64,000 bases of DNA from Tsuneonella mangrovi (GTDB lineage Bacteria; Pseudomonadota; Alphaproteobacteria; Sphingomonadales; Sphingomonadaceae), in the NCBI RefSeq assembly GCF_002269345.1, contig NZ_CP022889.1:1302001-1366000 (forward strand), in the 5' to 3' direction. The position numbers were made by a program, and so were the translations under genes. The notes below the pieces were generated by a model, which saw only the letters and a program-made list of their open reading frames with translations, did no database searches and was not told where the DNA came from. Of the stretch, positions 24,792 through 32,727 are shown in pieces; the stretch's first letter is position 1; every line of letters starts with the position of its first letter.

Positions 24792-24986
24792 TCAGGCGAG
24801 CGAGAGCAGCCAGCTCATGGCCGCGCCGAACAGCGAATCGACCCCGAGGAAGAACACCGCCAGGATCACCATCATGATCCCCACGAAGATTGCGGTGCGA
24901 GTGGTTTCCTCGCGGCTAGGCCACACGACCTTGCGCATTTCCGCCTGCACTTGCCGCATGAATTCGCCGGGGCTGGTCTTGGCCAT
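24792..24986 (-). CDS. secE: Protein translocase subunit SecE
   Basis: 64 residues with a conserved N-terminus (FMRQVQAEMRKVVWPSREETTRTA) and one transmembrane helix (IFVGIMMVILAVFFLGVDSLF). It is the essential short form found in alphaproteobacteria and stabilises the SecYEG channel. ATG 24986 is chosen because the family begins just before the SPGEFMRQV segment. Its usual neighbour tRNA-Trp is now about 7.7 kb away, beyond the mobile element. Confidence 0.95.
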   Translation of the reverse strand: MAKTSPGEFMRQVQAEMRKVVWPSREETTRTAIFVGIMMVILAVFFLGVDSLFGAAMSWLLSLA

Positions 24987-25181
24987 GATCGTCAGCTCTT
25001 GCCTTCGAAATTGAATACGTTCGCCTTTCGCCAATGGGGCCGCAGCCGCTCCGGTTCAAGTCCCGGGAGGGCTAAAGGTGCTCCAGATGTCGGAAAGCGA
25101 GGAGCCATGTAGGCCGCGCCAAAGGCAAAAGCAAGCCACCCGGATCGCACCCGGCGCCATCGGTTCTGCGGCGAAAGGAAA

Positions 25182-25201
25182 CGCTGGCAGGGGTGACAGG
25201 A
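25182..25201. repeat. attL core, left copy of the 20-bp integration repeat
   Basis: Identical to the right copy at 32649-32668. Seventeen of its bases match the 3' end of tRNA-Trp, including the encoded CCA. It lies in the leader region upstream of secE on the other strand and no longer belongs to a tRNA. Confidence 0.9.
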
Positions 25202-25265
25202 GCCCAAGACAAACCCCCTCTAACCTGCTGAAACCGCACGAAACCCTTGTAATCGCAAGGCTCTT

Positions 25266-25303
25266 GGACCACAAAGCTGGCCCACAAAGCTGGCCCACAG
25301 AGA
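25266..25303. repeat. Arm-type integrase site, left
   Basis: Three tandem copies of a 13-base unit (CCACAAAGCTGGC, the last one shortened), 12 bases before the integrase start. 36 of 38 bases match the block at 32567-32604. Likely binding sites for the N-terminal domain of the integrase, and possibly its autoregulation. Confidence 0.75.
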
Positions 25304-25315
25304 AACGGAGACAAG

Positions 25316-26749
25316 GTGGCATCGCTACAGAACAGGCACAACAAATGGCGCGCCAAGGTCCGAATCCCCAAGTCCCTCAGGGACCACCATGGGGGCCAAG
25401 AGTTCCTCCAGAAAACCCTCAGTGCCCTCGACAAGCCCACGGCGCGAGCCGAGGCCGAAACGTGGGAGGCGGGGTTACGCTCCGAGTGGGCTGCGCTGGC
25501 CTCCCCCAGTTCCACCAGCGGGGCAGCCTTGAGGCGCGTCTACGATGACGGGAGGAGGGCCGCGCTCATGGGTGAGTACACCCTCATCGCGGACACCGAC
25601 GATGACCCCGTAGAGCTTGGCATTGATCGCGAGATCGAGAAGATCGCAGAGCAAGCTGAGCGAGATCGGTTGACGGAGGCAGCTGAGGCGCGGCTAGCTG
25701 GCCTACAGGATGCACTCAAGGAACTGCAGGGCCAGAAGGTGAAGCCCCGGCGGGAGCTAGAGCCGACCTTCTCGGAGCTTGCCAAGCAGCACGTGGAGCT
25801 CTGGGCCACGCAAGATGGGCTCAAGGAGAGCAACACCCGCCAGCAAAAGGAGGCAACCTTCCGGCTCTTCGCTGGGTACTGCAAGGACCGGCCAATCCGG
25901 AGTGTGACCCGAGCGGAAGTGGCCGGGTTCATGGATGCACTGAGGCGACTAGACCCACTCTGGTCCCGGTCTCCCAAGAGCAGAACCATGACGTGGTCAG
26001 AACTGCAAAATACCTACTGGGGCAACGACAAGGGCCTGTCCGCTTCCACGCTCAACCGCCACGCAACTACACTGCAGGGACTCTGGTGGTGGGCGGAAGC
26101 TCGTGGGCATTGCGAGGGAAGGAACCCGTTCACCGGGCTCCACCAGAAGATACGCCCGGGCAAGAACCTTCTGGGCTACTTGCCTTGGACCACCGAGGAA
26201 CTGAGATCCCTGTTCAACCCTCCCCCGAGGCGAACCGATATAACCGAGGTCATGGTGGTGGCTCTCCACACTGGGATGCGCCTCAATGAGATTGCTTCGC
26301 TTACGCTGGGGGACATCAGAGAGGCTGAGGGCGTCACCTACATCGAGGTGCAAGACGCCAAGACACCCGCAGGTAACCGGCAAGTACCCCTCCATCCCCG
26401 CATCGCATGGTTGGGCAACCTCAAGGGCCCGTCGGATGCGCGGGTGTGGCCCGGGTTCAATGGCGAGGGTCCGGGCAAGAAGCCGGGGCAGGATGCGAGC
26501 AAGGAGTTCTCCCGCTTCAAGGTTGCCCGAGGGTTCACCGACAGGCGGAAGGTGTTCCACTCGTTCCGTAAGAACGTGACGAAGATCATCGAGCGAGCCG
26601 GTGTGCCTGAGAACGAGTGGGCACAGGTACTGGGCCACGAGCGAGGATTCACATACAAGACATACAACGCCGACGGGATCACCATGCAGCGCAAGGCCGA
26701 GTTGATCGCGCTAATCGAGTATCCCGGGTTGGAGTTTCCGGGCCGATAA
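25316..26749 (+). CDS. Tyrosine-recombinase integrase
   Basis: 477 residues; catalyses site-specific integration at tRNA-Trp. The N-terminal 60 residues (ASLQNRHNKWRAKVRIPKSL) form an arm-binding region, followed by a helical stretch (100-145), the core-binding domain (about 150-270) and the catalytic domain with Arg322 (HTGMRLNE), Lys349, His415-x-x-Arg418 (HSFRKNV), His441 (LGHERG) and Tyr450 or 447. All catalytic residues are present, so it should be active. GTG start with GGAG at 25307. No excisionase is recognised. Confidence 0.95.
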   Translation: MASLQNRHNKWRAKVRIPKSLRDHHGGQEFLQKTLSALDKPTARAEAETWEAGLRSEWAALASPSSTSGAALRRVYDDGRRAALMGEYTLIADTDDDPVELGIDREIEKIAEQAERDRLTEAAEARLAGLQDALKELQGQKVKPRRELEPTFSELAKQHVELWATQDGLKESNTRQQKEATFRLFAGYCKDRPIRSVTRAEVAGFMDALRRLDPLWSRSPKSRTMTWSELQNTYWGNDKGLSASTLNRHATTLQGLWWWAEARGHCEGRNPFTGLHQKIRPGKNLLGYLPWTTEELRSLFNPPPRRTDITEVMVVALHTGMRLNEIASLTLGDIREAEGVTYIEVQDAKTPAGNRQVPLHPRIAWLGNLKGPSDARVWPGFNGEGPGKKPGQDASKEFSRFKVARGFTDRRKVFHSFRKNVTKIIERAGVPENEWAQVLGHERGFTYKTYNADGITMQRKAELIALIEYPGLEFPGR

Positions 26750-26750
26750 G

Positions 26751-26790
26751 TGGAACAGGCCAATTAGTGCCACCCCTTGGGGAAGGAACA
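26751..26790. repeat. Imperfect direct repeat, copy 1
   Basis: 40 bases immediately after the integrase stop, about 32 of 40 identical to 26891-26930. Both begin TGGAACAG and contain CAATT; the same TGGAACAG octamer recurs at 30877 before the serine recombinase gene. Confidence 0.6.
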
Positions 26791-26890
26791 TTTTTGGGGC
26801 GGGCTCGATCAGCCAAGCAGGGATAGTACCCGATGTTGGCGACACGGGACGCTACGCGGCTTGCAAAGCCATGTGAATCCTAGCGATTGT

Positions 26891-26930
26891 TGGAACAGAC
26901 CAATTGGGGCCCACCCTTGGGGAGAGAACC
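26891..26930. repeat. Imperfect direct repeat, copy 2
   Basis: Second copy of the repeat at 26751-26790, 140 bases downstream. It includes a CCAATTGG palindrome that the first copy lacks. Confidence 0.6.
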
Positions 26931-27111
26931 TTCGCTTGAGGCTGATCGATGGGTGTTCGGTGAGCTTGATTCTGGCCTCAAGATCGACGCTCAATTTCCC
27001 AAGCGATATCAACCGGCTGCAAAAAAGCAGGCAATTAGGTCGCACCTACGGATAGAGAACCTCCGCAGACCGGCCCCCGTGAGTATGGACAGGTAAGCCG
27101 TGGAGGCCGGT

Positions 27112-27136
27112 GGGAAGGGGGGTAAGGGGGGATGGG
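27112..27136 (+). other. Potential G-quadruplex motif
   Basis: Four G-tracts of 3, 6, 6 and 3 or more bases separated by 2-3 base loops (AA, TAA, AT) on the + strand. It fits the usual quadruplex pattern. Only seven bases separate it from the palindrome at 27143. Confidence 0.6.
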
Positions 27137-27142
27137 TATGTT

Positions 27143-27159
27143 GGTACTCTATGAGTACC
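27143..27159. promoter_or_regulatory. Perfect palindrome GGTACTC-TAT-GAGTACC
   Basis: A 7-3-7 perfect inverted repeat in the noncoding region ahead of the small-gene operon. Size and symmetry fit an operator for a dimeric repressor. No repressor gene is identified within the element. Confidence 0.5.
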
Positions 27160-27557
27160 TGTAGTTGCATTTGTGGCTTCACCCACTCCTCACCAACACT
27201 CCCACCTAATCCAGTACCCGTTGGTCCACTCTAAGTGGGGGCTGGGGAAGTGTGTCTCTGTCTCCGCACCATGTCGCCACCGACGGTGCCCTTCTAGTTC
27301 CCCAGTTTCGTCGCGCTCCCCTTCCCGGGTCTGAGCGCACGATGGGCTCTGCCCCCTAAGGCTGCTTTCGGGCCACGGGTTGAGGGGCAGAGCCCAGAAC
27401 TTCTCCAGCCTGTCGAGGCTGTTTCACCCGAACCGACGCAATCCCAACCTCATGACCCCGGCGGTGCACCCTCAGTGCCCTGTCGGCCCATCCCAGCGCC
27501 GTGGCTGGGTCTCTTAAACTCGCTGGCTCCACGGTCCCAGCATCCGAAAGGTCCACT

Positions 27558-28346
27558 ATGGACAACTCAACCGACCCGTCCCGTCTGGTCGCTGACACCA
27601 CCGGCTCAGACTTCACACCCGCAATCTACGATATCGCCCCGGAAGACCGGGAGCGCGCAGAGCAGCTCCTGCAGTTCGATCCCCTTGCTGCCCCGAGCCC
27701 CGTCAAGCTCACCGGCGGTGGAGCCTTCAAGGCCCCTGAGCGGTTCTCGCTGTCGATCCTGCCGCCCGACAAGCAGGCCCCCATTGTCGCCGAGCTCGCC
27801 AACGTCCCCGCCGACATGCGGGCCCAGCGCGAACACGAGCTCGTCACCAACGCCCTCAAGCAGAACAGCACCGAGCTCCGCATCAAGGCAGGTCCGGGGG
27901 CAGGCGCCACCGAGCTCGACCGTGCCCAGTTCCAGCTGGCCAAAGACATCCACGAGCTCGAAACCGAAGAGCTCTCGATCCACGCCCAGCTGGCCGAGGT
28001 CTCGAAGTGGGTTCCGGTGTTCAACGAGGTGACCGGTGAGCCCGTCATCGATCCCGCCACCGGCAAGCAGCAGATACTCGCTATTGAGGCCATCCAAGGT
28101 GACCGGCGGGAAGCCATGCAGAACCGCGCCAATGAGCTCGCCTACCGCGTTGAGCTCCTCAAGGGCATCGAGGGTGACCGTCGGATCGAGAAGGCCCTCA
28201 AGGGCACCATCGAGACCGAGAAGCTCCAGAAGCAGCAGATTGCTGACCGCGAGGAAGTGAAGCGGCTGGCAGACGAGCTCGCCCGTGAGAAGCGTCTACG
28301 CGAGCAGGCCGAGGCTCTCGCCAAGCACAAGGGCACTCAGCTGTGA
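27558..28346 (+). CDS. Hypothetical coiled-coil protein of the mobile element
   Basis: 262 residues, not recognised. The first 60 residues look disordered and acidic; the rest is helical and rich in Glu, Lys, Ala and Leu, with a likely coiled coil from about residue 190 (EGDRRIEKALKGTIETEKL, then REEVKRLADELAREKRLREQ). AAAGGT lies about 7 bases before the ATG. It is the first and largest gene of a unit of five overlapping or closely spaced genes, so it may have a structural or scaffold role (speculative). Confidence 0.7.
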   Translation: MDNSTDPSRLVADTTGSDFTPAIYDIAPEDRERAEQLLQFDPLAAPSPVKLTGGGAFKAPERFSLSILPPDKQAPIVAELANVPADMRAQREHELVTNALKQNSTELRIKAGPGAGATELDRAQFQLAKDIHELETEELSIHAQLAEVSKWVPVFNEVTGEPVIDPATGKQQILAIEAIQGDRREAMQNRANELAYRVELLKGIEGDRRIEKALKGTIETEKLQKQQIADREEVKRLADELAREKRLREQAEALAKHKGTQL

Positions 28347-28420
28347 CCGGTGCAGGCATGGCCCTGATCGGGGCCGGTCTGGGTCTCATCTTCCAACACC
28401 TGCGAGGGCCCCATGCGTAG
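28343..28420 (+). CDS. Hydrophobic 25-residue peptide
   Basis: GTG at 28343 overlaps the stop of the preceding gene (GTGA). The peptide is MTGAGMALIGAGLGLIF followed by QHLRGPHA: one short glycine-rich membrane helix with a basic end. Its end overlaps the next gene by 8 bases. Such overlap implies coupled translation, but the peptide is too short to be certain it is real. Confidence 0.4.
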   Translation: MTGAGMALIGAGLGLIFQHLRGPHA

Positions 28421-28583
28421 AAACCCGACCATCTGGCGAAGGGGCAGCAAGCAGGTCCGTCGAACGATACCCAAGCCGCTTCCCAAGTGCCGCGAGGTGA
28501 CCGTCGAGGTCATGGGCGTGGCTCCTGGCATCAAGCGGATCGACATCGTCTCAGAGCCCCAGACGCCCAAGGCGTCCAGCTAA
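28413..28583 (+). CDS. Small basic protein of 56 residues
   Basis: Begins MRRNPTIWRRGSKQVRRTIP and ends IDIVSEPQTPKASS. Ten basic residues in the first 20, then a short beta-rich half (CREVTVEVMGVAPGIKRIDI). Nucleic-acid binding is plausible. It starts inside the hydrophobic peptide gene and ends 20 bases before the next start. Excisionase-like in size only; no helix-turn-helix is evident. Confidence 0.5.
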   Translation: MRRNPTIWRRGSKQVRRTIPKPLPKCREVTVEVMGVAPGIKRIDIVSEPQTPKASS

Positions 28584-28603
28584 CCCCTAGGAGAGCCCCC
28601 GCC

Positions 28604-28759
28604 ATGCAGACATCCGAACCGCTGGATCATGGTGGGGGCATTCCTCCACTCTGGGCTGACATTCACGCCCTTCAACCTTTCACCCCCAATCGAAAGAACA
28701 CACGACCCAATGAACACCACCGCAGCCCGCTTGTCCCTGAGAGAGGCCATCGACGCTAA
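28604..28759 (+). CDS. Small hypothetical protein of 51 residues
   Basis: Starts MQTSEPLDHGGGIPPLWADI and ends SPLVPERGHRR. The support is a very good ribosome site (AGGAG, 9 bases before ATG) and its place in a tightly packed gene row; composition (Pro, His, Arg) is not diagnostic. Its end overlaps the next gene by 50 bases in another frame. Confidence 0.45.
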   Translation: MQTSEPLDHGGGIPPLWADIHALQPFTPNRKNTRPNEHHRSPLVPERGHRR

Positions 28760-28880
28760 GTGTCGCGATTGCATCTTTGACGAGTGCGAGCCCGGACGTT
28801 GGAAGCAGCAAGTTGCAGCCTGCACCTGCACCGACTGTCCGCTCTACACTGTCCGACCCCTGCCGAGACAGCGCGCATAG
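28710..28880 (+). CDS. Cys-rich phage-type small protein (putative zinc binding)
   Basis: 56 residues with cysteines in the arrangement IDAKCRDCIFDECEPG...QVAACTCTDCPLYTVRP. This pattern (A-K-C-x-D-C, then C-x-x-x-x-C-P-L) is found in small proteins of many proteobacterial prophages, which is the main evidence for a phage or satellite origin. The cysteines could bind zinc. It is probably translated by coupling, since it starts inside the preceding gene with no clear ribosome site. Confidence 0.7.
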   Translation: MNTTAARLSLREAIDAKCRDCIFDECEPGRWKQQVAACTCTDCPLYTVRPLPRQRA

Positions 28881-29044
28881 CAGGCCGAATTGATGTCTGA
28901 AGGACACCCTTAGGCTGGCTTTCTGAGATATCGTGGCCGGTCTGGGGGTGTCTCCACCCAATCAAATGAGGACACTCGCAAATGCCAACTCGGAGCTGGT
29001 TTTCTGGCTTGTCCAATGACGAGCCACACGAATTATTGGTCGGA

Positions 29045-29320
29045 TTAGTCTTTGCTGGCCTTATCCAAGTATGTCCCAACTCCGACTAGCACCGCCGGGA
29101 GAATTGCTCCGAGCAGGACACCAACGCCGCCCAACCTCAAGCGCAAGCCATATTCACCTTCGGGAAGCAGCCATCGGGGCGCGTCCCTCTTTCCAAGTTC
29201 GAGAATGAGCAGCGACCCATTGTAGTCATACTGGGTTCCGAGGCGCCAAAAAATAAGGATTAGAACTGCGGCAAGCGCATAGCTGGAGTATACCAGAACC
29301 TTCCTTTGGTCACTGTTCAT
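29045..29320 (-). CDS. Small membrane protein of the mobile element
   Basis: 91 residues with two hydrophobic segments (VLVYSSYALAAVLILIFW and LGGVGVLLGAILPAVLVGV) and a charged loop between. GGGAGG lies about 6 bases before ATG 29320. It is transcribed against the neighbouring genes, as cargo genes often are. No family recognised; a role in phage exclusion is possible but unsupported. Confidence 0.6.
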   Translation of the reverse strand: MNSDQRKVLVYSSYALAAVLILIFWRLGTQYDYNGSLLILELGKRDAPRWLLPEGEYGLRLRLGGVGVLLGAILPAVLVGVGTYLDKASKD

Positions 29321-29614
29321 TTTTGCCTCCCATAATATTGCCCCCGGCACATCAAACGGATTGCTTTAGAAAGTGGATCGCGCGCTAGCGATAGAAGTGC
29401 CGCCAACGGCATCGACTGGCCAGAGCTACTTATGCTTCTCAGCGGCCCGTGTCGTCAATGTCGGCTACCCCCCTTCTTGGATGCCGCCACCCAGACAGAT
29501 TGCAAAGACGGGAATATGAACCAACAATGCGATTGCTGTAGCCAAAGTTTCACTGGGTTAAAGCTTCTGCTAACTTTGCATCTGCTGTTTGCCTCGACTC
29601 AGGGAGGGAAAGAG

Positions 29615-29857
29615 ATGGGGATGATTACCGAGGCTAGTCCTAGATGGAGGAAGGTAGCTGGAGCGAAGTCAGTACCTCGAACATGCCCTCGTTGCAGCAA
29701 TAACGTACGGTTTGATTTGGTGACCGAAACGGCCGGGATAACTATCTTCGGCTTGGGGAGGGCATTAATCCCACTTCGACGATATTGGGCTATTAAGTGC
29801 CCTATATGTATATATTATGAAGTGATTTCTTCTGAGGAAGCAAGGAGCCTCAGGTAA
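29615..29857 (+). CDS. Zinc-ribbon protein A
   Basis: 80 residues with two CxxC pairs: RTCPRCSNNVRFDL and AIKCPICIYYEVI, a zinc-ribbon fold. The chosen ATG has a strong AGGGAGG ribosome site; the frame is open upstream to 29432, adding a further Cys-rich segment (QQCDCCSQ) that may not be translated. The sequence is visibly more AT-rich than the rest of the window. Its stop overlaps the next start (TAATG), so the two are co-translated. Confidence 0.6.
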   Translation: MGMITEASPRWRKVAGAKSVPRTCPRCSNNVRFDLVTETAGITIFGLGRALIPLRRYWAIKCPICIYYEVISSEEARSLR

Positions 29858-30222
29858 TGGTTCTAACCATGCGGATTGGGACAATTGAATTAGGCACAGG
29901 GCGTCTAGTTAATTGTGAACATTGTAATAATAGATCATATGAATCGGTGAAGCTAAAATATTTTCATCAAGATGCCCTTGGCTTCGTTCCGATGAATCGC
30001 AGGATTCAGGAGATACTTGTCGTATGTCCAGTTTGCCACTGGGGTATAAAGGTAGACCGCAATAAGGATTTTGTTTTTATTGATGCAATATTATGGGAAG
30101 GTCGGGAGAGAACGAGGGCTTTCCTTGACACCGTCTCCCCCTATCAGAAGCGTCTAACGATCAAATACTATAGGAAAGTCGGACTAAAGAGATTATTGAA
30201 CTATATGGGGTTTGAAAAGTAG
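29857..30222 (+). CDS. Zinc-ribbon protein B
   Basis: 121 residues (or 117 from ATG 29869). VNCEHCNNRSYESVKLKYF and LVVCPVCHWGIKV give two CxxC pairs in the same order as in its partner; the C-terminal half is basic and helical (YQKRLTIKYYRKVGLKRLLNY). It starts in the stop codon of the preceding gene. AT-rich codons mark a separate origin. Function unknown; a two-gene module carried by the element. Confidence 0.65.
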   Translation: MVLTMRIGTIELGTGRLVNCEHCNNRSYESVKLKYFHQDALGFVPMNRRIQEILVVCPVCHWGIKVDRNKDFVFIDAILWEGRERTRAFLDTVSPYQKRLTIKYYRKVGLKRLLNYMGFEK

Positions 30223-30400
30223 CCGCTCCCTGACGGATGGTCGGTGTTGAATTTGGGCGGTCATATTTGCTGCAAAAATCCGAACCGGGAAGCGAGTGAG
30301 CGAGAAACGGCCATTCCCCCATAGGGCACCCACCTGTAACCACCGGTCCCTAGCGGGACACCCCTCACTCTGAGCAGCTGAGGGATGCCGCGGAGCCGAA

Positions 30401-30754
30401 CTATGGGGCGGGATTGTTGGGCGGGGCAACTCGCGGCACATCTAAGCCCAACTCTAATTGGTAGGTCCTCAGAACCCACAGGTTACCCCAGTAGGGCATT
30501 ACGAGGCCATCGGCGGTAAATGACTCCTGTGACGCCGCTAACCTTGTTGCCAGCTCCTGAGCTTGTTCCGGTGTGCAGTCCTTGTTCCATTCGTTTATCT
30601 GCTCAAGGACATACGCCATTCCTTCAACAGAAGTCATGTCCGTGAGTTCAGGCACCTGAGCTGCGATCAAGTCTTGATTCTCGTTAAGCTCTATACTCTT
30701 CCGATCAAGCGCGGCTCGGGCTCTGTAATTCCTCCACCAAGATTTCAGGCCCAT
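30401..30754 (-). CDS. Hypothetical soluble protein of the mobile element
   Basis: 117 residues, starting MGLKSWWRNYRARAALDRKS. Helical first half with acidic residues, ending in a Pro/Asn-rich tail (VPRVAPPNNPAP). GGAG is about 10 bases before ATG 30754. No domain is recognised. It points toward the zinc-ribbon genes and away from the serine recombinase. Confidence 0.5.
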   Translation of the reverse strand: MGLKSWWRNYRARAALDRKSIELNENQDLIAAQVPELTDMTSVEGMAYVLEQINEWNKDCTPEQAQELATRLAASQESFTADGLVMPYWGNLWVLRTYQLELGLDVPRVAPPNNPAP

Positions 30755-30856
30755 CAATTTCTACTCCGACCCAGTCGATCCATCTGAGAGCAAGATAGCA
30801 GTAGATCGCGCAAAGTGCTCCATCAACAATCGGCTTTACACGTTGTACCAATCCAC

Positions 30857-30870
30857 GTAACGTCCGTTAC
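30857..30870. promoter_or_regulatory. Palindrome GTAACG-TC-CGTTAC
   Basis: A perfect 6-2-6 inverted repeat 26 bases before the serine recombinase ATG, in its promoter region. It could be an operator or a recombination site for the resolvase. Confidence 0.45.
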
Positions 30871-30896
30871 ACAGGTTGGAACAGTGAGGTTCACCG

Positions 30897-31571
30897 ATGA
30901 AAGCCGTTGCCTACTACCGCGTCTCCACCGCCACTCAGGCCCGCTCTGGGCTGGGGCTAGATGCCCAGAGGGCAGCCGTTGCTGACCTATGCGCCTCCCG
31001 AGGCATGGAGATCATTGCTGAGTTCACCGAGGTGGAGAGCGGCAAGCGGAACGACCGGCCTGAGCTCACCGAAGCTCTCCGCCGCGCGAAGCTCACAGGT
31101 GCCACGCTGGTGGTCGCCAAACTCGACCGCCTGTCCCGCTCAGTGGCGTTCCTGTCCACCCTGCAGGACAGCGGAGCCAAGTTCATCGCTGCCGATATGC
31201 CCGAGGCCAACGAGCTCACCGTGCACATCCTCGCAGCCGTGGCCCAAGCGGAACGCAAGGCAATCTCCACGCGCACCAAGGAGGCCCTCAGGGCAGCCAA
31301 GGCGCGGGGCGTGAAGCTTGGCAACCCCAACGGGGCAGCCTCACTCAAGAGGGCTGGCAAGGGTAACGTGGCAGCCATCGAGGCGGTCAAGGATGCCGCC
31401 CAGAGCCGTGCTCAGGAACTCGCTGGTGAGATTGAGGCGGTGAAGGCAGCCGGGGCCCAGAGCCTGCGGGAGATCGCTCAGGGGCTCAACGAGAGGCACA
31501 TCGAGGCACCTAGGGGAGGCAGCTGGTATCCTTCGGGGGTTAAGCGGGTGTTGGAGCGCCTAGGGACCTGA
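30897..31571 (+). CDS. Small serine recombinase (resolvase/invertase family)
   Basis: 224 residues. Catalytic Ser10 in AYYRVSTATQARSGLG, the resolvase domain to about residue 150 (KLDRLSRSVAFLSTLQ, AQAERKAISTRTKEALRAAKARGVKLG) and a C-terminal helix-turn-helix (LREIAQGLNERHIEAPRGGSWYPSGVKRVL). It lacks the long C-terminal zinc domain of large serine integrases, so it is more likely a resolvase or invertase. Ribosome site GAGG before the ATG. A hairpin follows at 31584. Confidence 0.9.
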   Translation: MKAVAYYRVSTATQARSGLGLDAQRAAVADLCASRGMEIIAEFTEVESGKRNDRPELTEALRRAKLTGATLVVAKLDRLSRSVAFLSTLQDSGAKFIAADMPEANELTVHILAAVAQAERKAISTRTKEALRAAKARGVKLGNPNGAASLKRAGKGNVAAIEAVKDAAQSRAQELAGEIEAVKAAGAQSLREIAQGLNERHIEAPRGGSWYPSGVKRVLERLGT

Positions 31572-31583
31572 GCCCTGCACCAC

Positions 31584-31611
31584 CTAGTGTATTGTGCGAG
31601 CAACACACTAG
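31584..31611 (+). terminator. Stem-loop after the serine recombinase gene
   Basis: Perfect arms CTAGTGT / ACACTAG with inner TTG/CAA pairing, 13 bases after the stop; a T-run (six T) begins about 14 bases farther on. Probably a terminator, though the spacing to the T-run is long. Confidence 0.5.
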
Positions 31612-31672
31612 CCTGCCGCCCTGCTTTTTTGCTCCACGACTCGGTGGGCTAAGAACTAATAATACTTCGCAG

Positions 31673-31697
31673 GACTGTTAGATTGATTCAAACAGTC
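31673..31697. repeat. Inverted repeat GACTGTT / AACAGTC
   Basis: Perfect 7-bp arms around an 11-base AT-rich loop, in the noncoding block after the serine recombinase gene. Confidence 0.5.
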
Positions 31698-31810
31698 GGG
31701 GAAAACCGGCCGCCAATAAATTTTTTTCGAATTGAAGAAATACCCTTGCGCGATTCGCCAGCCTAGGGATTCCGCGCCTTACGTCCCGCCGCTGCCGCAA
31801 GGTGATCTTC

Positions 31811-31846
31811 GTGAGCAATAGTTCGATAGGTTAATTATTGCGTCAC
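31811..31846. repeat. Inverted repeat with single-base bulge
   Basis: Arms GTGAGCAATA / TATTGC-G-TCAC: ten base pairs with one extra G on the 3' side and a 15-base loop. It resembles the bulged hairpin at 31887 in design. Confidence 0.5.
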
Positions 31847-31886
31847 CCCCTTGCATGGGAATCCCGGCTAATTCACGTTGGGGACT

Positions 31887-31914
31887 GGCTGGGGATAAGT
31901 TTTGTCCCCTAGCC
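31887..31914. repeat. Inverted repeat with single-base bulge (second)
   Basis: Arms GGCTGGGGA / TCCCC-T-AGCC: nine base pairs with one extra T on the 3' side and a 9-base loop. An outer GGGGAC/GTCCCC pairing (31880 and 31904) offers an alternative fold. Confidence 0.5.
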
Positions 31915-31971
31915 TACCCGGTCCAACTATAAGGGCCGTGGGCGAACTGCGTACCTTCCAACAGTATGCAG

Positions 31972-32045
31972 GGGAACGGTAAGCGGGCGGGCCTTCAACC
32001 ACTCAGCCCCTTCCAAAAGGGCATGATGCATCGCTTACCGTTCCC
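31972..32045. repeat. Long stem-loop with 14-bp perfect arms
   Basis: GGGAACGGTAAGCG at 31972-31985 is the exact reverse complement of 32032-32045. The 46-base loop contains a further near-perfect GCCCCTT / AAAGGGC hairpin. A cruciform or structured transcript upstream of the membrane-protein gene is possible. Confidence 0.65.
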
Positions 32046-32115
32046 GCCCTTCTTGCCTGAGATCGTTGGTTCGATCAATCCTAGGGGCAACTCGGACGGC
32101 TGCGGCAGGTGGCAG

Positions 32116-32496
32116 ATGAAGATCAGAGAAGAATGGGGTTCGTTAGCATCGCTCATAATTGGAGGCCTTGCCTTCGTCGGCGGAGTAGCTCAGCTCACCG
32201 ACCATCACACCAAAGGCAGCGGGATTATAGCTGGGGCTCTTATGGTTGTGGGGGCTCTCATTTATCGATCAGCGAAGAAGCGTCGGTCTCTTGAAGGAAG
32301 GAGCATCGTCAGAATAATCTCGGAGATCATCGGGGCGCTAATTATCCTCGAGCTCGCCTTCGGTCAGAACAATTTGAAAGAGCGGATCGCGAACGATCCA
32401 GTTGTATTCGTAATCGCGATATGGGCGCTCATTGCCTACGGCTACGCGGCCTTCAGATCACTATCGAGTTCAGACAATCAAGGCGCGTCCAGATAG
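32116..32496 (+). CDS. Small four-helix membrane protein near the right end of the element
   Basis: 126 residues from ATG 32116 with about four membrane segments (GSLASLIIGGLAFVGGVAQL, GIIAGALMVVGALIYRS, ISEIIGALIILELAFG, VVFVIAIWALIAYGYAAF). AGGTGG lies just before the ATG; the frame is open to 31966 but that leader overlaps the inverted repeat at 31972-32045. Not recognised. It may be cargo such as an exclusion protein (speculative). Confidence 0.55.
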   Translation: MKIREEWGSLASLIIGGLAFVGGVAQLTDHHTKGSGIIAGALMVVGALIYRSAKKRRSLEGRSIVRIISEIIGALIILELAFGQNNLKERIANDPVVFVIAIWALIAYGYAAFRSLSSSDNQGASR

Positions 32497-32566
32497 CAGA
32501 ACACCGACTGACTGCTTCTGCTTACCTTGGGCGAGTGCGAAAGCCTGAGCGATTCCCTCCCCATCC

Positions 32567-32604
32567 GGACCACAAAAGTGGCCCACAAAGCTGGCCCACA
32601 GAGA
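32567..32604. repeat. Arm-type integrase site, right
   Basis: Same three-unit block as at 25266-25303, in the same orientation, with two changes. It ends 44 bases before the attR core. In the excised circle the two blocks would flank the core, as expected for arm sites of a tyrosine integrase. Confidence 0.75.
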
Positions 32605-32648
32605 TCACTGTGCGCCACCTAAGTATCTTAAATATAATGTTTTTAGAG

Positions 32649-32668
32649 CGCTGGCAGGGGTGACAGGA
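32649..32668. repeat. attR core, right copy of the 20-bp integration repeat
   Basis: Overlaps the last 17 bases of the tRNA-Trp gene, including its CCA end. Integration kept the tRNA whole because the element's end restores the identical sequence. Confidence 0.9.
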
Positions 32669-32727
32669 TTCGAACCCGTGGCCCTCGGTTTTGGAGACCG
32701 ATGCTCTACCAGCTGAGCTACACCCCT
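32652..32727 (-). tRNA. tRNA-Trp (CCA anticodon)
   Basis: 76 bases with an encoded CCA end. On the minus strand: acceptor AGGGGTG, D-arm GCTCAGCTGGTAGAGC, anticodon loop CTCCAAA (anticodon CCA), T-loop TTCGAAT, acceptor CACCCCT, then GCCA. All four arms pair. It is the integration site of the mobile element; the gene stays intact, with transcription running toward the element and, beyond it, secE. Confidence 0.97.

Follow-up and report, generated by a model that had tools for sequence, protein, structure and literature searches.

A tRNA-Trp-integrated element of Tsuneonella mangrovi with T7-type phage promoter-like sites, a probable satellite of T7-like podophages

The element in tRNA-Trp and its genes

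We analyzed a 64-kb stretch of the Tsuneonella mangrovi genome (contig NZ_CP022889.1, positions 1,302,001 to 1,366,000; hereafter the window), in which a small mobile element separates the tRNA-Trp gene from secE. The genome is a single contig of 2,702,851 bases. Both ends of the element are formed by the direct repeat CGCTGGCAGGGGTGACAGGA, whose two copies are identical at 20 of 20 positions, lie 7,467 bp apart and have no further copy in the window (Table 1). The repeat corresponds to the 3' end of the tRNA-Trp gene, which was detected intact by ARAGORN and by Rfam (71.7 bits); the element is thus an ordinary tRNA integrant, and its integrase gene lies at the end distal to tRNA-Trp. The integrase reading frame is uninterrupted, and the protein retains R, HxxR, H and Y at the positions taken to be catalytic. 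A pair of 38-nt inner repeats (95% identity), just within each end, looks like integrase arm sites. In two genomes of the same genus, G001 and G004, the 20-mer is present once in 3.3 kb, at an unoccupied tRNA-Trp, and is followed by host DNA. With tRNA 3'-end repeats at its termini, an integrase and an empty site in relatives, this is a tRNA-integrated mobile element. An initial annotation of the window had described about 7.5 kb between tRNA-Trp and secE, bounded by a 20-bp repeat, with an intact tRNA-Trp at one end and an intact integrase at the other, and had proposed comparison with empty sites; the data above bear out this description.

Table 1. Features of the element and its borders (positions in the window).
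Feature	Position	Strand	Basis or remark
Host secE, outside the element	24792..24986	-	Open reading frame (ORF) and conservation in relatives
Conserved promoter-like block upstream of secE, outside the element, kept	25105..25137	-	By eye in relatives; missed by strict scan
Attachment (att) repeat, secE side, copy of tRNA-Trp 3' end	25182..25201	+	Exact 20-bp direct repeat; single 20-mer in empty loci of G001 and G004
Arm-type direct repeat near secE-side end	25266..25303	+	38-nt family, 95% between both ends
Tyrosine integrase, 477 aa	25316..26749	+	PF00589, E 3.6e-9; PHROG integrase, 4.2e-34; alignment of five relatives
T7-type phage promoter-like site 1	26761..26786	+	20.3 bits, matrix without window sites in training
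T7-type phage promoter-like site 2	26901..26926	+	23.3 bits; viral-collection matches of a pattern that includes this site are all T7-like phages
T7-type phage promoter-like site 3	27032..27057	+	16.4 bits
P262, family-defining, 262 aa, mostly helical	27558..28346	+	Alignment search, 15/397 family genomes; model with predicted local distance difference test (pLDDT) of 76, no significant fold match
P56, small core protein	28413..28583	+	25-40% identity to three relatives
ZN, Cys-rich core protein, 56 aa	28710..28880	+	46-80% identity to three relatives
Membrane-like protein, 101 aa, variable region	29045..29350	-	ORF only
CxxC protein, 113 aa, variable region	29516..29857	+	ORF only
CxxC protein, 121 aa, variable region	29857..30222	+	ORF only
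118-aa protein, variable region	30401..30757	-	58% homologue in the G244 element, L119
Small serine recombinase (resolvase/invertase type)	30897..31571	+	PF00239, 2.7e-29; small homologues in 17/19 P262-type loci, none seen in L115 and L120
Membrane-like protein, 176 aa, cargo slot by the tRNA end	31966..32496	+	Only sub-cut-off matches, e.g. holin family
Arm-type direct repeat near tRNA-side end	32567..32604	+	38-nt family, 95% between both ends
att repeat, tRNA side, overlaps tRNA-Trp 3' end	32649..32668	+	Exact 20-bp direct repeat
tRNA-Trp (CCA), intact, integration target	32652..32727	-	ARAGORN, Rfam

No capsid, conjugation, replication or relaxase gene was recognized in the element by Pfam and PHROGs searches of its 10 ORFs and NCBIfam searches of five window proteins, in agreement with the initial annotation. 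Eight T7-like proteins used as tblastn queries gave no match in the window. The genes that would mark a T7-like prophage, namely those for a single-subunit RNA polymerase, DNA polymerase, connector and terminase, were not found there. P262 could not be placed in a known family, as the window protein has neither a Pfam or NCBIfam match at the cut-offs nor a PHROGs match; across 16 members of the family we observed weak library matches only, each in one or two members, and scans of phages, plasmids and genome_contigs gave none.

Promoter-like sites in the elements and in T7-like phages

Between the integrase gene and P262 there are repeated sites of about 26 bp with the consensus CAATTAACCCTCACCCTCGGAGAAGG. 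Based on a matrix trained without the window sites, the 64 kb contain exactly three matches of at least 8 bits, sites 1 to 3 of Table 1. Judging from their sequence, these sites read like T3-type phage promoters: the T3 promoter shares 13 consecutive bases, the spacing and the GG start with the consensus and scores 16.8 bits. The four bases before the start differ from those of the T3, K11 and T7 promoters, and the window sites form a variant class (AATTRGG...CAC).

The sites belong to the elements and not to their surroundings. A leave-one-element-out matrix gave 41 matches of at least 12 bits in the 86,004 bp of 12 elements and none in 191,861 bp of flanking DNA (the limits of the G399, G424, G337, L122 and L124 elements were set by hand for this count), and 40 of the 41 were oriented toward P262. 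Matches were found in eleven of the twelve elements and in all seven P262-type loci outside training (at least 12 bits; weakest 13.8), so that 18 of 19 P262-type loci carry the site. The element of G030 had two matches. The specificity of the matrix has its limits: one match of 12.6 bits was found in L071, a distant integrase relative without P262, and one of 12.1 bits in L120 lies off the core. Letter shuffles of some loci also gave one or two matches at 12 bits, and near-threshold matches (e.g. 15.5 bits in G408) weigh little. When a first pattern derived from the elements, AATTAACCCTCACYCTYGGRG, was searched with at most one mismatch in 397 bacterial genomes, ten matches were obtained in six genomes, all inside P262 elements; the reversed pattern gave none among the matches listed.

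The same pattern matched 11 stretches from nine contigs in a viral collection of 2.9 million contigs, and all 11 contain T7-like genes. Its places are fixed: about 100 bp before the RNA polymerase gene in three contigs of near-identical phages, one of which has a second site after the gene; at the exonuclease-connector junction in three stretches; and inverted past the end of terL in five. A second pattern, AATTRGGSCSCACYCTYGG, which covers the middle site of the window and a G337 site, matched three stretches from two contigs, all T7-like, one at the exonuclease-connector junction and two inverted past terL. These 14 viral stretches are not all independent and correspond to about four phage lineages by protein identity. 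Their arrangement bears on another explanation of the repeats, namely that the element is an autonomous or conjugatively mobilized integrative element whose repeats are iterons for a small DNA-binding protein of its own, the phage likeness being coincidental or due to an old shared iteron. Although the repeats do lie upstream of the core operon, a typical place for iterons, no replication or relaxase gene was recognized, and in phages the pattern recurs ahead of the RNA polymerase gene, where exonuclease and connector meet, and next to the terminase. We consider this explanation very unlikely.

Among the 397 bacterial genomes, PF00940 was above cut-off in seven, none of them in the genus of the window. 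One of these, G036, from the same bacterial family, harbors a 42.0-kb T7-like prophage (G036:C1:1602018-1644049; L152, L153 and L168) flanked by 14-bp repeats at tRNA-Gly(ccc), in which eight of eight T7-like query genes were found and which is apparently complete and temperate. It has four sites of the class: two after the polymerase gene, one between exonuclease and connector and one inverted past terL. G408 has a single weak site (15.5 bits), some 30 bp ahead of the polymerase gene, and in the scanned stretches of the other five genomes G027 had one match of 13.6 bits and G281, G045, G309 and G013 had none. The sharing of this site class would also be expected if the element were a shrunken T7-like prophage with some promoters left. 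However, the eight T7-like proteins match none of the 11 element loci searched, the element integrase has no significant blastp similarity to the helper integrase (best E 0.11) though both match PHROG phrog_1, and the core order is kept across genera and the core was not seen in phages. We therefore regard a prophage remnant as extremely improbable.

Among named phages, the closest polymerases (52% identity) are those of the Caulobacter phage S2B and of jiawei. A phage recorded on Mycolicibacterium (OR464703.1) has a polymerase 52% identical to that of L151, equal to S2B; L151 is an alphaproteobacterial-type contig, and the host label is possibly questionable.

The element family and a satellite of T7-like podophages

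P262 alignment searches found the family in 15 of 397 genomes and 9 of 96 genera. The 19 P262-type loci examined were the window, the second copy of its own genome (L067), L068, L069, L109-L121, L122 and L124; in L121 the P262 match is weak and P56, the Cys protein and the recombinase are present. The second element of the window genome, 7,322 bp in length, lies at tRNA-Gln and has the same core and an integrase 59% identical to that of the window element. The usual gene order is integrase, P262, P56, Cys protein, zinc-ribbon-like protein and small serine recombinase, with some genes missing in some members; the window element lacks the zinc-ribbon-like protein. Core order is constant across genera and the integrase is exchangeable. 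Seven of the 19 loci have a tyrosine integrase at tRNA-Gln, tRNA-Trp or tRNA-Tyr; three (L112, with 5,000 masked bases, L114 and L117) have a tyrosine integrase and no tRNA in the fetched stretch; eight have a large serine recombinase, likewise with no tRNA in the stretch; and in L120 no integrase was seen. The seven members with both tRNA-type ends mapped, by searching repeat spacings of 2.5-15 or 3.5-16 kb, measure 7,322-7,836 bp (mean 7,597, standard deviation 180; sizes thus cover 7 of the 19).

Single components of the element also occur apart from P262. In G030 this type of integrase belongs to a 12.4-kb element without P262, and it was found in one viral contig, L082, with a serine recombinase and without P262. 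Since the Cys protein is present in eight viral contigs and, without P262, in six of ten genome_contigs loci (L123, L127-L131), it is not exclusive to the family. No matrix match of 12 bits was found in the viral contigs L082-L090 or in L123 and L127-L131, all of which are without P262.

The slot next to the tRNA end differs between members and holds defense-type cargo matches in three of the five relatives tested. The G008 element has a reverse transcriptase there (RVT_1, 3e-22; closest in NCBIfam to a group II maturase, though under the cut-off), the G325 element a KAP NTPase (L109:13034-14521) matching PADLOC PDC-S20, a candidate defense family, at 2.6e-81, and the G384 element a protein with an HsdR_N domain by Pfam, for which PADLOC gave only 0.0011. 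PADLOC had no match for G007, G356 or the five window proteins tested. The cargo reverse transcriptase at L069:13082-14176 (minus strand) is like group II and DRT-type (defense-associated reverse transcriptase) enzymes.

Short repeats of 11 bp come after the site in several members and helpers. In 8 of 14 regions (L148, G036, two of G424, G384, G337, G399 and L142) none of 200 shuffles was as good, and in L146, L141, G325, L124 and OWN2 the numbers were 1, 3, 8, 10 and 14; as the consensus was picked by eye from the tested sequences, these shuffles are indicative only. For the members that have them, the repeats suggest a terminus or packaging signal.

The initial annotation had proposed a small integrative unit or a phage satellite of unknown type. 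This stands: the element is small, is integrated at the 3' end of tRNA-Trp, is probably a phage satellite and has no recognized capsid, conjugation or replication genes; its type can now be narrowed to a family with T7-like phage promoter sites. As in satellites, no virion structural genes of its own were recognized and it contains cis signals that match those of a helper phage. We therefore consider it highly probable that the element is a satellite of temperate T7-like podophages, induced through the helper polymerase at its sites. Its own tyrosine integrase inserts it into the tRNA-Trp 3' end, as the anatomy and the empty sites show. By sequence, the three sites between integrase and P262 are of the class found in T7-like phages next to the gene for the single-subunit RNA polymerase and at further fixed places, and an infecting T7-like virus would probably switch the element on: upon infection by a helper or its induction, transcription by the helper polymerase would cover P262, P56, the Cys protein and the genes downstream of them along with the helper genes. 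Excised and amplified, the element DNA would be packaged in helper particles, and the slot by the tRNA end holds variable cargo, of anti-phage type in some members. Two further roles are more tentative. According to titles cited in PMC5997990, initiation of T7 replication at the primary origin requires the polymerase, and as T7-type phages start replication from polymerase transcripts, the sites could double as the replication origin of the satellite. Where members have short repeats of the helper terL type, which were not seen in the window, these might be part of the packaging signal.

A bolder version of this proposal would make these elements the first family of T7-like phage satellites, and one that hijacks its helper by promoter mimicry alone: copies of polymerase promoters, with terminase-end short repeats in some members, would serve as induction switch, origin and packaging signal, so that neither a replication gene nor a regulator is needed, and P262 would be a morphogenesis factor of the satellite. 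The last idea comes from the location of P262 behind a site like the one before the helper connector and scaffold genes; in several members the last site before P262 resembles, by eye, the site before the helper connector gene. We hold this version to be slightly less probable than its contrary.

Several observations count against the satellite interpretation. The K11 and T7 promoters score low with the matrix (6.2 and 3.9 bits), and one of the 12 elements, G356, has no match. A T7-like RNA polymerase gene is absent from the window genome and from the 10 other genomes of the genus that were covered. S2B and jiawei have no matrix match at 10 bits and none with a generic T7-type expression; promoters may drift along with their polymerase. 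P262 was not found in viral contigs; its structure model (five sequences, pLDDT 76) had no match with E <= 0.001 in viral or PDB libraries (several of the top PDB rows are phage portals or connectors, none significant, best E 0.62), and profile comparison revealed no similarity to the helper scaffold and connector. Short repeats of the helper terL type are not detectable in the window element, where 141 of 200 shuffles were as good. Finally, promoter use of the sites and excision, replication and packaging of the element are what we infer from sequence.

The sites would equally suit a phage-triggered defense island, in which a T7-like polymerase is only an alarm that turns on P262 and the cargo, and the element is not packaged by phages. 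The defense-type cargo of G008, G325 and G384 agrees with such a role. On the other hand, the narrow size range of the seven mapped members together with the integrase and the conserved serine recombinase, the spread over nine genera with swapped integration modules, and the short repeats like the helper terL end in several members suggest, though they do not prove, transfer by phages, and we judge a defense island unlikely.

The proposed satellite of T7-like podophages resembles known satellites in part. Phage-inducible chromosomal islands (PICI), including those of Staphylococcus aureus (SaPI), and capsid-forming PICI (cfPICI) have an integrase, site-specific insertion, reliance on a helper and accessory genes. 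The window element has these features in common with them, whereas it has no recognized Stl/AlpA, primase/Rep (Pri-Rep), TerS or capsid-remodeling gene (distant versions are possible), and its induction would be by the helper polymerase. Late promoters of P4 use the host polymerase with an activator and are not known to use a phage polymerase. P4-like satellites are similar in that satellite genes respond to the helper and in their anti-phage hotspots (PMC9122126); the window element differs in that no psu, sid, delta or alpha (primase) protein was recognized by Pfam or PHROGs. According to the available passages of PMC10803314, the phage-inducible chromosomal minimalist islands (PICMI) of the Vibrionaceae integrate next to fis, have AlpA as key regulator, and include PICMI115, of 6,110 bp, with few core genes, no capsid-remodeling genes and defense cargo. 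The window element is like them in its very small size, few core genes, lack of recognized capsid-remodeling genes and, in the family, defense cargo. However, it lies at tRNA-Trp, none of its 10 ORFs has an AlpA match in Pfam, its helper would be a T7-like podophage, and those passages describe no helper-polymerase promoters in PICMI satellites. The temperate T7-like podophages themselves (the contigs from IMG/VR and the G036 prophage) show this class of site at fixed places as well. They differ in having genes for replication and virions, of which the elements yielded none, and the Caulobacter phage S2B is without a matrix match.

A satellite with T7-like phage promoters is likely new. The open-access matches listed, in the parts available, describe no satellite with T7-type promoters (subscription journals and bioRxiv are mostly outside this scope), and among those found for phage satellites together with Autographiviridae, none was relevant by title and start of abstract. 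In most known satellites, sensing of the helper relies on a protein that engages a repressor or activator. If the interpretation is true, a satellite that is switched on by carrying promoters of the helper polymerase would be a simple and directly testable tie between the lives of two genomes, and satellites would be extended to T7-like phages. It would also provide a search rule, which is to look for phage-polymerase promoters outside phages in bacterial genomes.

The tRNA-Trp–secE interval

The initial annotation had supposed that tRNA-Trp lies directly before secE in this group and that secE and nusG may have lost or gained a promoter through the insertion. Relatives do not bear out the first supposition, and the second found no support. 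A match to the secE region was found in 66 of 148 genomes (own included), and 29 relative loci (L034-L062) were fetched. The tRNA-Trp was inside the fetched flank in 12 of the 29; its distance to the secE start was 0.22-0.75 kb in the 11 of these measured, and 10 of the 12 have an intervening ORF of about 50 aa (MSSLSFRSSRPDSW... type). This ORF is absent from the window at 24987-25181, where 195 bp are left between the repeat and the secE start, and the rest of the genome holds at best a weak match to it (E 0.005). As to the promoter, the block TTGCTTTTG ... CTACAT, identified by eye upstream of secE and conserved in relatives, is still present between the att site and secE, and the three phage-type sites of the element face away from secE. 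Its conservation suggests that the block is the promoter of the secE operon; a strict sigma-70 scan upstream of secE had no match. In the secE leader (about 25030-25070, minus strand) there is a GC-rich inverted repeat of the CCCTCCCGG...CCGGGGCGG type, which had no Rfam match at the gathering threshold and recurs with changes in relatives.

Ten of the remaining 17 loci were viewed further out. No protein or site of the P262 element family was found in these ten; the tRNA-Trp was 2-16 kb away in seven (L188-L192, L196 and L197) and none was in the fetched stretch in three. The distance thus often exceeds that in the empty sites, and given these seven other genomes the interval may be an insertion hotspot. 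In L190, an additional tRNA-Trp-like stretch lies close to secE.

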